15,712 bases of DNA from Microcaldota archaeon (lineage in GTDB: Archaea > Micrarchaeota > Micrarchaeia > Anstonellales > J096): contig WAPD01000040.1 in NCBI GenBank assembly GCA_015520875.1, positions 1 through 15,712 on the forward strand, written 5' to 3'. This document shows, piece by piece, positions 5,901 to 14,435 of the stretch. The translations under genes and the position numbers were made by a program. The notes under the pieces are model-generated. The model saw nothing but the letters and a program-made list of their open reading frames with translations, did not search any database and had not been told where the DNA came from. Numbering within the stretch: the first letter of the stretch is position 1; each line of letters opens with the position of its first letter.

Positions 5901-6260
5901 TCCACTCAAGAACAAGGGGACCTGTGCAATTATTAACAGCACAACCTACAGAGGGTAGAAGCAGAGAAGGAGGTCTAAGATTCGGTGAGATGGAACGTGA
6001 TACTTTGATAGGTCATGGAGCAGTAGCCACCATTAGAGATAGATTATTAGAAAATAGCGATAAAGCAACATTTTACATATGTAGGGACTGTGGAGCCTTT
6101 GGATACTATGATTATATTAAAAACACATTAATATGTCCTGTTTGTAAGAGCACCAACATAGGTGAGGTTGAGATGCCTTATTCATTCAAGTTGCTATTGG
6201 AGGAAATAAAGGCATTGCATATCTATCCTAAGGTTCATATTGGTAAGAAGGGTGATGTGG

Positions 6261-6268
<8 letters not shown>
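2942..6268 (+). CDS. rpoB: DNA-directed RNA polymerase subunit B, unsplit (Rpo2)
   Basis: Second largest catalytic subunit of archaeal RNAP, equivalent to bacterial beta and eukaryotic RPB2. It is a single chain of 1108 residues from the TTG at 2942, or 1111 if GTG 2933 is used; the former fits the GGTGA spacing. The family opening, with LDSYNHFI, is close to the N-terminus. The fork and rifampicin-pocket region carries KICPSETPEGQS. The strongly conserved GDKFSSRHGQKG loop begins near residue 861, followed by DGIVPDLIINPHAIPSRMT. A C-terminal zinc ribbon has cysteines at about 1047, 1050, 1065 and 1068 (CRDC and CPVC). No break occurs where the B'/B'' split is found in halophiles and many methanogens. 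The end overlaps the rpoA1 start by 8 bases. Confidence 0.97.
6251..6255 (+). promoter_or_regulatory. GGTGA ribosome binding site deciding the rpoA1 start
   Basis: GGTGA ends five bases before the ATG at 6261. Earlier in-frame candidates (GTG 6240 and 6252, ATG 6255) lie upstream of or within the motif and would add only residues without family similarity. Confidence 0.55.
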
Positions 6269-9826
<3,558 letters not shown>

Positions 9827-9835
9827 GTGATATGA

Positions 9836-10165
9836 ATGGGAAAGATATTAATAAGAAAAAGAACTAAGAAATCTGGAGAAGATCCAATTGCAGAGAACCT
9901 AAGATTAATTGCAGAAACAGGAAAAATCATAATCGGAGCAAGAGAGGCAGAAAGAGCTTTGATATCTGGAGAAGCAAAAGCACTATATCTTGCAAAAAAC
10001 ACACCTAAGGATACTAAGGAATCTTTAAAGGCATTAGCAGAAAGGTCCAATATTCCTGTAATTGAATATGGGTCATCTGTTGACTTAGGGCAAATTATCG
10101 GAAGACCTCATTTGGTATCAGCGATTGCTATAATAGAATTAGGAGAGGGTCAATTATCAGCATGA
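9836..10165 (+). CDS. rpl30e: Ribosomal protein eL30
   Basis: Large-subunit ribosomal protein of the L7Ae/L30e/S12e/Gadd45 fold, 109 residues. Family landmarks are TGKIIIGAREAERALISGEAKALYLA, then IPVIEYGSSVDLG and RPHLVSAIAI. The N-terminal extension MGKILIRKRTKKSGEDP is basic and somewhat long. ATG 9836 is preceded by GGTGAT at 9826-9831. An overlapping ATG at 9832 is in another frame and hits a stop quickly. eL30 between RNAP A'' and NusA is the standard archaeal order. The stop overlaps the nusA start as ATGA. Confidence 0.95.
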   Translation: MGKILIRKRTKKSGEDPIAENLRLIAETGKIIIGAREAERALISGEAKALYLAKNTPKDTKESLKALAERSNIPVIEYGSSVDLGQIIGRPHLVSAIAIIELGEGQLSA

Positions 10166-10581
10166 GCATAGAAATAGGAGAAAAAGAAATAGAGCTCTCC
10201 AACAAATTCTTTCAGATAACAGAGCAAATGCCCCTCAAGGTCTATGATGAGGGGGATTATCTTTATTTTTTGGTTGAGGATAAGGATAGCGCTTTAAGGA
10301 AATTAAAGCTTTTGGAAACGGCCTTTAAAAAGAAAGTCATTATCTATCAGGATTCTGATGACTTGGACCAATTTATAAAAAACTTTTTTAACAATGTTAA
10401 GATCCACCATTATGAAGTGGAGCAAATAGGAAACGAGAAACATTTATTGTTGTTTGTGGATGGTCGAGATGCTAAAAGGCTTTATGGGAGGGGAAAATCT
10501 CGTTTTAACGTAGCCAAAAAGATTTTAAAGGAAAAATTCAATATGGATTTACATATAAGGAAAGTTCCTTCCTTGGGGTGA
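10162..10581 (+). CDS. nusA: Archaeal NusA-like transcription factor, KH-type, GXXG loops lost
   Basis: A 139-residue protein at the invariant NusA position after eL30. Archaeal NusA consists of two KH domains only, without the bacterial N-terminal RNAP-binding and S1 domains, and is presumed to act in transcription elongation or termination by binding RNA. KH1 spans about residues 25-85 and KH2 about 86-135; the latter is recognisable from FVDGRDAKRLYGRGKSRFNVAKKILKEKF. The RNA-contacting GXXG loop is not intact in either: KH1 has SALRKLKLLE where AIGKKG is expected, and KH2 has GRGK at 109-112. The start ATG 10162 overlaps the eL30 stop. Its TGA stop lies inside the GGTGAT that precedes SBDS. 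The assignment rests on position and KH2 similarity and is fairly confident. Confidence 0.8.
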   Translation: MSIEIGEKEIELSNKFFQITEQMPLKVYDEGDYLYFLVEDKDSALRKLKLLETAFKKKVIIYQDSDDLDQFIKNFFNNVKIHHYEVEQIGNEKHLLLFVDGRDAKRLYGRGKSRFNVAKKILKEKFNMDLHIRKVPSLG

Positions 10582-10582
10582 T
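10577..10582 (+). promoter_or_regulatory. GGTGAT ribosome binding site before a likely ATT start of SBDS
   Basis: GGTGATATTATT at 10577-10588 matches GGTGATATTATG before rpoA2 in all but the last base, so the translation signal is intact while the expected ATG is ATT. The nusA TGA stop (10579-10581) is part of the motif. Confidence 0.6.
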
Positions 10583-10585
10583 ATT

Positions 10586-11287
10586 ATTACCTCCCTAGAT
10601 AAAGCAATAATCGGCAGGATAGAGAAAGGGGGCGAGCGTTTTGAGGTTTATTTAGACCCAGATAAAACCTATGATTATCTAAAGGGATTGAAAAAGGATT
10701 TGAAGAATATTTTAGTGGTTGAGGAGATTTTCAAGGATGCTAGAAAAGGAGAGAGGCAATCTCCATCCAATATAGAAAAAGCATTTGGCACCCAGGATAT
10801 TTATGCTGTTTTAAAGGAAATCCTAGAAAAGGGAGATGTTCAGCTAACAACAGAGCAAAAAAGGAAGATGATGGAGGAAAAGAGAAAAGCCATAATTGCC
10901 TATATCTCACAAAATGCAATAGATGTTAGGACAAATGCCCCGGTCCCTCCTTTGAGAATAGAAAATGCAATGGAGAAGCTTAAAATAAGGGTGGACCCTT
11001 TTAAGCCTGTAGATTCCCAAATACCTGAAATAGTTAAGGTTTTAAAAAGGGAAATACCATTAAAGATAGCAACCGCTCAAATAGCAATTAAAGTTCCTGT
11101 GGAATATTCGGGAAAGGTTCTCGGATATTTGAAGAGCTTCAAGGTAAAAAGAGAGGAATGGGGTTCTTCTGGAGAACTTTACGCTATAATTGAGATACCT
11201 GCCGGTATGCAAGGAGAGGTATTCGGAAAATTGAGCAAATTAACATCTGGAACTGTTGATGTTAAAGTATTGGAGGTGAAAGAATGA
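10586..11287 (+). CDS. sdo1: SBDS/Sdo1 ribosome maturation protein, probable ATT start
   Basis: Archaeal SBDS orthologue. In eukaryotes the family acts with EFL1 to release eIF6 from the 60S subunit; archaeal SBDS binds the large subunit and is usually encoded beside the exosome. From ATT 10586 the product is 233 residues, the usual length, and begins with the family opening (M)TSLDKAIIGRIEKGGERFEV. It continues with VVEEIFKDARKGER, FGTQDI, the KGDVQLTTEQ block, ISQNAIDVRTNAPVPPLRIE, and a C-terminal ferredoxin-like domain. No ATG, GTG or TTG lies in frame between the upstream stop at 10556-10558 and TTG 10688. Starting at that TTG gives 199 residues and deletes a third of the conserved N-terminal domain. 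So either translation starts at ATT, as in a few known genes, or a base is wrong. The stop overlaps rrp4. Confidence 0.88.
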   Translation: MTSLDKAIIGRIEKGGERFEVYLDPDKTYDYLKGLKKDLKNILVVEEIFKDARKGERQSPSNIEKAFGTQDIYAVLKEILEKGDVQLTTEQKRKMMEEKRKAIIAYISQNAIDVRTNAPVPPLRIENAMEKLKIRVDPFKPVDSQIPEIVKVLKREIPLKIATAQIAIKVPVEYSGKVLGYLKSFKVKREEWGSSGELYAIIEIPAGMQGEVFGKLSKLTSGTVDVKVLEVKE

Positions 11288-11871
11288 TTGTGTTGCCTGG
11301 AGATGAATTGGTAAATGTAAGAGCACCCCGTCAATATACCTACTTAAAGGACGGGAAAACATATGCGGCTGTTTTAGGAATAGTAGAAAATGGAACATTT
11401 ACACCATATGAATTCGTTTACACTCCTAAATTAGGGGATGTTGTTGTAGGAAGGGTTATTGCAGAGAAAAAGAGAGTTGCCTATATTGTTGATTTAGGAG
11501 CTTATAAAACAGCTGTTATCATGACAAGAGGGTTGCCAGTTAAAATAAAAATAGGAGATGTTGTAATGGGGAAACTGGAACAATCGGATGAAATATTGAG
11601 TAACATAAGGGTTTTAAGAGGGGGAGCTTTAATAAAAATAAACCCTTCTAAAATAGCCCGGGTTATTGGGACAAACGGTTCTATGGTGAAGATAATAAAG
11701 GAAAAGACAGAAACTTCTGTCTATGTAGGTTATAATGGATATATTTATGTGGCTGGGAAAAATGTTTCCAAGGCAATAAAAGCCATTTACACTATTGAAA
11801 GAAGGGCCCATATTAGGGGATTAACCGATTTTATTAGCGATATGTTGGAAGGTGAGAAGAATGAGGAGTGA
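11284..11871 (+). CDS. rrp4: Exosome RNA-binding cap subunit Rrp4, short form
   Basis: Cap protein of the archaeal exosome that binds substrate RNA and feeds it into the Rrp41/Rrp42 ring. Its 195 residues are fewer than the roughly 220-250 usual. A compact N-terminal domain starts at MIVLPGDEL. An S1 domain spans about residues 50-112 (KLGDVVVGRVIAEKKRVAYIVDLG), and a KH domain about 115-175 has an intact GTNG loop at 129-132. The shortness comes mainly from the N-terminal region and the C-terminal tail, which ends ISDMLEGEKNEE. GGTGA at 11275-11279 precedes ATG 11284, which overlaps the SBDS stop as ATGA. Its own end overlaps rrp41 by 11 bases. Confidence 0.93.
   Translation: MIVLPGDELVNVRAPRQYTYLKDGKTYAAVLGIVENGTFTPYEFVYTPKLGDVVVGRVIAEKKRVAYIVDLGAYKTAVIMTRGLPVKIKIGDVVMGKLEQSDEILSNIRVLRGGALIKINPSKIARVIGTNGSMVKIIKEKTETSVYVGYNGYIYVAGKNVSKAIKAIYTIERRAHIRGLTDFISDMLEGEKNEE
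11851..11855 (+). promoter_or_regulatory. GGTGA ribosome binding site deciding the rrp41 start
   Basis: GGTGA is five bases from ATG 11861. The in-frame GTG at 11852 is inside the motif and is therefore an unlikely start. Confidence 0.5.
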
Positions 11872-13559: not shown

Positions 13560-13687
13560 TGAAGTACTATCTTTGGCCTAAACTAAAAGAGGTCGAAGTA
13601 GAATCTTTGGATGAATTTTTTGTTACAGGTATTCATATTTTGGTAAAGAAAGATCCTGATGGACCTGTGGAAGTTTCTACTGATTAG
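13559..13687 (+). CDS. Unrecognised 42-residue protein after eL43
   Basis: A short ORF whose ATG overlaps the last base of the eL43 stop, and which is preceded by the same GGTGA motif used by its neighbours. The product opens MKYYLWPKLKEVEVES and ends DPDGPVEVSTD. It has mixed charge, no cysteine, no membrane segment, and looks like a few beta strands joined by a short helix (inferred by eye). I recognise no family. It is not RpoP, which would carry a CxxC zinc knuckle, nor prefoldin, which would be coiled coil. Its last 29 bases overlap the CAP-protein start, so it could act as a coupling leader for that gene. It could also be a small ribosome- or RNAP-associated protein. Reality as a gene is moderately supported; function is unknown. 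Confidence 0.5.
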   Translation: MKYYLWPKLKEVEVESLDEFFVTGIHILVKKDPDGPVEVSTD

Positions 13688-14435
13688 TTTTATTCTTTTT
13701 GCCGGTTGTATCTCTAATGACGATGTTATACCGGGCAATTATTCTAAAGTAGAAGTTAAACCTGTAAATGAGATGGAATATGCCACTTTTATCTATATAA
13801 ACGTGTTTAGAACCCATAATGGAATTGATAAGGTTAAATTAGACCCTTTATTATCTGAGGTCGCTAGAAACTATTCCAGATTAATGATTAGGAAAAACTT
13901 TTTTAGCCACTATTATCGGGGAAAAGATGTGAAATATAGAGTAAATAGCACAGGATATGGCTTTTTTAGCCTTGGAGAGAATTTAGCAGAGCTTTCTGGA
14001 GATTGTTATGATTTGGAGTTGGCAAGAAAAGCTGTAGATTTATGGTCTAAGAGCCCTGCCCACAGGTTTGTAATGGAAAATAGGATATTCGATAGAGTAG
14101 GTATTGGAGTATATTGTGAAGGGGGGCTAAATGCAATAACAACAATATATGCTCAAACCTGTTTAAACAAAACATTGCACCTTGTCCCTGACCAAATTCT
14201 TATGGTTGTTCCAGATTCTCAACCCAATAGTACTCGTGTTTTATATATAAAAACTCAAGGAAACTGCGAATATAAGCAATATGTGTTTCCTTTGGAAAAG
14301 CAGGATAGTTATTTCTTCTATGAAACACCTCATGAAATAATAAAAAAATATAAACTGCCTATTGGAATTGCTTTACATTCCCCTTTTGAGTGCTCTGTTA
14401 CCCTGGAATTTTGCTATCTCAATGATTTAGAATAA
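13659..14435 (+). CDS. Secreted CAP/SCP-domain protein, putative lipoprotein
   Basis: A 258-residue extracytoplasmic protein. The N-terminus MDLWKFLLISFILFAGC is a short hydrophobic signal ending in a lipobox-like FAGC with Cys17, so lipid anchoring is possible, though Phe at -3 is not ideal. Residues 42-165 form a CAP (CRISP/antigen 5/PR-1, YkwD-type) domain with NVFRTHNGI, FFSH (H84), GENLA (E107) and SPAHR (H135), the usual His/Glu cavity residues. The remaining C-terminal third is unrecognised. Six cysteines besides Cys17 (116, 153, 168, 203, 245, 252) could form disulfides. Five N-X-S/T sequons occur at N27, N71, N96, N170 and N190, fitting a glycosylated surface protein. No GGTGA precedes ATG 13659, so translation may depend on the overlapping 42-codon ORF. 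The function of archaeal CAP proteins is unknown. Confidence 0.87.
   Translation: MDLWKFLLISFILFAGCISNDDVIPGNYSKVEVKPVNEMEYATFIYINVFRTHNGIDKVKLDPLLSEVARNYSRLMIRKNFFSHYYRGKDVKYRVNSTGYGFFSLGENLAELSGDCYDLELARKAVDLWSKSPAHRFVMENRIFDRVGIGVYCEGGLNAITTIYAQTCLNKTLHLVPDQILMVVPDSQPNSTRVLYIKTQGNCEYKQYVFPLEKQDSYFFYETPHEIIKKYKLPIGIALHSPFECSVTLEFCYLNDLE
14342..14348 (-). terminator. Possible T-rich terminator of the thrS-kinase pair
   Basis: Seven A on the plus strand give a T7 run on the minus strand about 70 bases past the kinase stop. Archaeal termination uses T-rich stretches, but this run lies within the CAP coding sequence (a Lys-Lys codon pair) and may be incidental. Confidence 0.25.

Follow-up and report, generated by a model that had tools for sequence, protein, structure and literature searches.

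In bacteria, the gene infC, which encodes IF3, starts with AUU and is autoregulated, and two works of 1987 cited in PMC9845219, one by Butler and one by Brombach and Pon, reportedly concern, going by their titles, this gene. For E. coli, AUU is quoted at ~0.3% of AUG in a paper whose title requires overlaps or very short distances for termination-reinitiation gene pairs (PMC10666635). The aIF1 of S. solfataricus favors discrimination against non-canonical starts, and this factor, not SBDS, is the known archaeal fidelity factor (PMC6237735). An ATT start has been inferred for the tubulin AtubA of the Asgard Kariarchaeaceae (PMC13394414), and archaeal SBDS is placed in an exosome super-operon (PMC8024482).

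Here, we describe an SBDS gene in a window of 15,712 nucleotides, the whole stretch of DNA that was analyzed, which is contig C40 of a 639-kb MAG (G000; 77% complete, 122 contigs). In this genome SBDS is full length only if it is started at ATT 10586–10588, and sequence comparison indicates that it very probably is initiated there. The comparison with infC drawn in the initial annotation holds for the codon class, both being AUU-class starts in genes of the translation machinery, whereas the SBDS gene is archaeal, has AUC as well as AUU, and encodes a protein with no known role in judging start codons. With AtubA, the locus shares the setting of an archaeal operon, a truncated database protein, and an ATT with a ribosome-binding site at a plausible distance; AtubA, however, is a structural gene described from one genome, while the SBDS codon can be compared across species. 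The SBDS of the archaeal exosome super-operon is of the same family and also neighbors Rrp4, but our locus differs from it in the start codon and in the NusA-like gene directly upstream. In both G000 and its sister species, 4 nt separate the nusA stop from the SBDS start, which agrees with the very short distances of termination-reinitiation pairs, although here the start is non-canonical and the coupling putative. Among the matches listed in a search of the open-access literature, neither an SBDS non-AUG start nor a conserved archaeal AUY start was reported in a title or abstract. The codon class is already known; what is, as far as we have seen, apparently new is its occurrence in this gene and in this domain of life, together with the exchange of AUU and AUC across species.

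The SBDS Gene and Its Neighborhood

The gene order consists of an upstream run of what we take to be RNA polymerase genes and an L30e-like gene, followed by the NusA-like gene, SBDS, the Rrp4-like gene and, beyond it, two genes that are presumably RNase PH-like (Table 1). The product read from 10586 matches the NCBIfam model TIGR00291 (SBDS) over its whole length (protein 3–229, model 3–230 of 231) at a score above the cut-off of 126.55, which places it in the SBDS family.

Table 1. Features at and around the SBDS start, in positions of the window.
Feature	Position	Strand	Remarks
GGTGATATTATG before the next RNA polymerase gene (rpoA2 in the initial annotation)	8759..8770	+	SBDS signal except for the last base
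NusA-like gene directly upstream of SBDS	10162..10581	+	TIGR01952 36.7 bits, under the cut-off of 74.35; same junction in G002
Shine-Dalgarno GGGGTGAT	10575..10582	+	Can pair (one G-U) with the 16S tail AUCACCUC found in genomes of the same genus
SBDS gene	10586..11287	+	233 aa plus stop; TIGR00291 242.8 bits; Pfam SBDS_N, domain II, SBDS_C
Probable ATT start codon of SBDS	10586..10588	+	ATC in G002
First in-frame canonical codon, TTG (residue 35)	10688..10690	+	Not conserved, ATT in G002
TTG (residue 39)	10700..10702	+	First codon of database protein P0001; CTC in G002
Rrp4-like exosome gene	11284..11871	+	4-nt overlap with SBDS stop; NF003181 122.9 bits, under the cut-off of 200

The conserved SBDS N-terminus opens directly after ATT 10586, downstream of GGGGTGAT. 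The initial annotation was right in coordinates and frame that no ATG, GTG, or TTG occurs between the in-frame stop at 10556–10558 and TTG 10688, and right too in likening the signal here to that of rpoA2, since GGTGATATTATG (8759–8770) and GGTGATATTATT (10577–10588) mismatch at the last base alone. Two neighboring ATT codons, 10583 and 10586, lie in the SBDS frame; the latter is favored because it leaves a spacing of 3 nt after GGTGAT and because G002 has AGC-ATC at the same two codons. The spacing fits the Shine-Dalgarno starts of G000 itself, where the signal is real (37 sites of GGTGATN{2,5}ATG vs. 13 in a reversed control). Pairing between GGGGUGAU and AUCACCUC is possible at eight positions, one of them G-U, with 3 nt left before AUU. 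A 16S gene was looked for in G000 and not found; the tail in G001–G004 is GATCACCTC-AAA (3′ ends L291–L294, from G002, G003, G001, and G004), and in G005, G010, G011, and G012 it is GATCACCTCC, so that the anti-Shine-Dalgarno tail of the genus seems to be one C shorter.

The stop of the NusA-like gene, TGA 10579–10581, sits within the Shine-Dalgarno sequence of SBDS, 4 nt ahead of the ATT. The junction reads TGA-TATT-ATT in G000, TGA-GAGC-ATC in G002 (GGGGTGA-GAGC-ATC with the preceding bases), and TGA-GTTT-ATG, at the same 4-nt distance, in the genus-mate G003. A scan for sigma-70-type promoters, a model not meant for archaea, found 5 where 4.1 were expected.

Elsewhere in the window, the second large RNA polymerase gene is started at TTG 6240 in the list of open reading frames (window 6240–6263), while GGTGATGTGGATG points to ATG 6261, from which the gene would overlap the end of the preceding one. 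Adjoining the exosome operon, positions 13659–14435 encode a CAP-domain protein (PF00188, 42.9 bits) with, by eye, a lipoprotein-like N-terminus.

ARAGORN, run on 30 of 32 tRNA matches in search of an unusual initiator tRNA, found one tRNA-Met(CAT). Loss of aIF1 was considered and rejected, with SUI1 above the cut-off in 13 of 14 genomes, G000 and G002 among them. A tRNA-Pro with A34 is unusual in archaea; ARAGORN reports one with anticodon AGG on contig C98 of G000 (L236 829–903, L256 1501–1575), which may be a misread anticodon.

The Probable Start Codon in the Sister Species

The closest genome found is that of a sister species, G002 (JAADEL010000015.1, the source of L032), with 88% protein identity to the SBDS of the window. 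Of the relatives that carry names, L032 and L033 belong to Micrarchaeota; among the closest predicted proteins, several bear the name Micrarchaeota or Anstonellales and one Methanobacteriota. In a 21-row protein tree, G000 and G002 group together (support 100/99), with P0002 and the group of G001, G003, and G004 nearby in no settled order.

At the codon aligned to ATT 10586, G002 has ATC, with no canonical start back to the upstream stop, which strongly supports the placement of the start where the initial annotation expected Met. The annotation had held that relatives with ATG at this position would speak for an error; the closest relative carries ATC, the opposite outcome. Two species, of one genus only, carry a non-NTG AUH codon where the homologous start lies. 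In G001 and G004 an ATG stands at the next alignment codon, with the nusA frames of both extending past it, and G001 has an extra in-frame GTG two codons ahead of its ATG.

Between the SBDS genes of G000 and G002, 115 codon differences are synonymous and 27 non-synonymous, and 43 of 71 fourfold sites differ (Jukes-Cantor distance ~1.24), so the non-AUG start survived near-saturating divergence. All 10 differences in codons 1–14, ATT/ATC at codon 1 included, are synonymous, while all 6 in the 10 codons ahead of the start (in the SBDS frame) are non-synonymous, a change of pattern that is partly imposed, since the upstream codons overlap nusA and are read in another frame. On this comparison the odd start looks evolutionarily kept and not like a sequencing mistake. 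AUG was probably lost once, the third base having since moved between U and C and never back to G; G000 and G002 share one ancestor, and the loss may be a single event. That AUG has failed to return suggests that a weak start is tolerated or favored.

The databases hold truncated proteins for both species because gene callers, as commonly set, accept only ATG, GTG, and TTG. The cluster of the window protein, P0001 (three member sequences), has 195 aa and begins at residue 39, TTG 10700, its representative differing from the window protein at one internal residue. The protein of the sister species, P0003, has 191 aa, begins at residue 43, and equals the G002 protein over all 191 residues; its JGI contig is 15,060 bases long, compared with 11,217 for that of G002, and may stem from the same sample. 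Truncation by automated callers had thus been correctly foreseen, but not at TTG 10688, which neither protein uses. Among the 120 proteins listed out of 1464, P0002 is the best full-length relative, with 72% identity and a Met start.

Occurrence of Candidate AUH Starts

SBDS was found in 283 of 295 genomes, and its 5′ end was read in under half of these. The 131 ends read comprise 30 loci of a first set (G000 and G002 included), two named ones, and 99 of 100 further loci fetched, L128 (G247) being left out; as L033 and L209 are probably the same record, ~130 genomes stand behind them. Only two of the 131, those of G000 and G002, have no ATG, GTG, or TTG in the stretch from roughly 8 codons before to 6 codons after the expected start.

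Some relatives are of interest in their own right. The locus of G006, from the same family, reads GGTGAT-TTT-ATA-GTT-TCA-ATG (L008 1486–1506; G006:C116, about 11124–11144), with ATA at the expected start and the usual Shine-Dalgarno distance, and ATG three codons later, possibly a third AUH start in the family. In the next relatives, L005 (G005), P0007, and P0010, SBDS begins with TTG behind GGGGTGA. In predicted folds this Shine-Dalgarno, too, is strongly masked, the unpaired probability being 0.01 in windows of 46 nt and 0.15 in windows of 100 nt; P0007, as called, carries a long N-terminal extension.

General use of AUH starts is rejected, as AUH codons behind a Shine-Dalgarno sequence are not enriched over controls in either genome. 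The scans, which covered forms beginning with GGTGA at the spacings given, yielded 52 sites of GGTGATN{2,5}ATH vs. 65 in the reversed control and 28 of GGTGAVNNNATH vs. 43 in G000, and 220 of GGTGAN{3,6}ATH vs. 278 in G002, the latter being counts with SBDS the one site read. In G000, 81 sites were read (53 in loci fetched for GGTGATN{2,5}ATH and the 28 of GGTGAVNNNATH), among which SBDS is the sole one with a frame of at least 60 codons, no upstream NTG, and none within the first 30 codons. Of the further ATT starts behind GGTGAT for which a search had been proposed, none besides SBDS was gene-like among these 81; the nearest, L112, has 60 codons from ATC with the first NTG after 26, and in L114 and L275 the codon after AUH is ATG. 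An AUH start is thus at most a one-gene exception. An 18-mer search of viral contigs gave one match.

Alternative Interpretations of the Start

It is very improbable that the ATT is a sequencing or assembly error hiding a true ATG. The fragmentation of the MAG would allow for such an error, but ATT and ATC occur in two species, with different third bases and no other NTG, and the database proteins, P0003 from a contig of different length and P0001 with its three members and one differing internal residue, are both truncated calls. A programmed +1 frameshift at GGG-UGA, fusing NusA to SBDS and turning the ATT into an internal Ile codon, would suit several observations: SBDS lies in frame +1 relative to nusA, G000 and G002 agree in GGG-TGA and in the length of the 4-nt spacer, AUU and AUC both encode Ile, and the U/C exchange at codon 1 would equally be shown by an internal Ile codon. 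We nevertheless give this fusion little credence, as the linker codons vary (GAT-ATT vs. GAG-AGC), GGGTGA is accounted for by the Shine-Dalgarno sequence together with the nusA stop, an identical junction in G003 is followed by an ATG of its own, and a review (PMC8211752) reports just one archaeal programmed frameshift, which is of the −1 type. A true start at an internal TTG, the choice of the gene callers, would leave about half of the N-terminal domain absent; it is barely credible given that the TTGs used differ by species, that the first canonical codon common to G000 and G002 is residue 95, and that residues 2–34 are under purifying selection.

Another proposal is compatible with initiation at AUU, namely that AUY has been kept as codons 1–3 would pair with their own Shine-Dalgarno sequence, opened only by an arriving nusA ribosome. 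Codons 1–3 (AUU-ACC-UC) are close to the 16S tail AUCACCUC, and the third base of the start codon faces a G in this pairing. In 46-nt windows, the predicted probability that the Shine-Dalgarno is unpaired is 0.06 in G000 and 0.15 in G002, less than at any of the 28 GGTGAT-ATG starts of G000 that were measured; with G or A as the third base it rises to 0.32–0.44 in G000, and in G002 to no more than 0.24. In 100-nt windows, however, 1 of the 28 starts is at or below the G000 value and 6 are at or below that of G002, folds of 85 nt show no excess stability over shuffled sequences (z 0.78 and −0.17), and G003, G004, G006, and G007 are without such masking in 46-nt windows. Synonymous recodings with the start codon fixed mask the Shine-Dalgarno at least equally in 34–36% (G000) and 74–80% (G002) of cases in 46-nt windows, and in 18 and 90–91% in 70-nt windows; this control thus reveals no selection for the pairing in G000 or G002, and G002 leans the opposite way. 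We consider it unlikely that such pairing has maintained the codon; the pairing may be a by-product of AUY following GGUGA.

Proposed Initiation and Its Implications

Under initiation at AUU 10586 (AUC in the sister species), Met would be placed there presumably by the ordinary initiator Met-tRNA, the Shine-Dalgarno GGGGUGAU, ending 3 nt upstream, would position the ribosome on the AUU, and initiation would be fed, at a reduced rate, chiefly by ribosomes coming straight from the end of nusA, the UGA of which lies inside the Shine-Dalgarno. AUU should be a weak start because aIF1 favors discrimination against non-canonical ones, and this weakness, together with the position of the nusA UGA within the Shine-Dalgarno and 4 nt before the start, is our reason for proposing that post-nusA ribosomes are the main supply, a supposition that might equally well hold or fail. 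It is more doubtful that the weak codon holds SBDS below its operon neighbors, though it perhaps does. A rationale for such a brake is that the SBDS of Sulfolobus inhibits the GTPase of aEF2 and the release of aIF6 in vitro, but SBDS is also very abundant in Sulfolobus cells, which by analogy counts against a dosage brake (both PMC8024482). The same abundance makes less probable an archaeal circuit like that of infC, in which an AUY start, fed by nusA and sensitive to the stringency of aIF1, would set the dose of SBDS, and SBDS would gate large-subunit maturation; this analogy we regard as rather unlikely. If it were true, ribosome assembly would be tied to start-codon fidelity in a reduced archaeon.

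By comparison of two species, the locus makes a case that archaea can retain an AUY start, and it suggests a screen of close genome pairs for genes that share an AUH behind a Shine-Dalgarno sequence but no NTG start. The SBDS start would be a natural reporter of the stringency of archaeal aIF1 and aIF2 on start codons, and could show whether weak codons brake ribosome-assembly genes.
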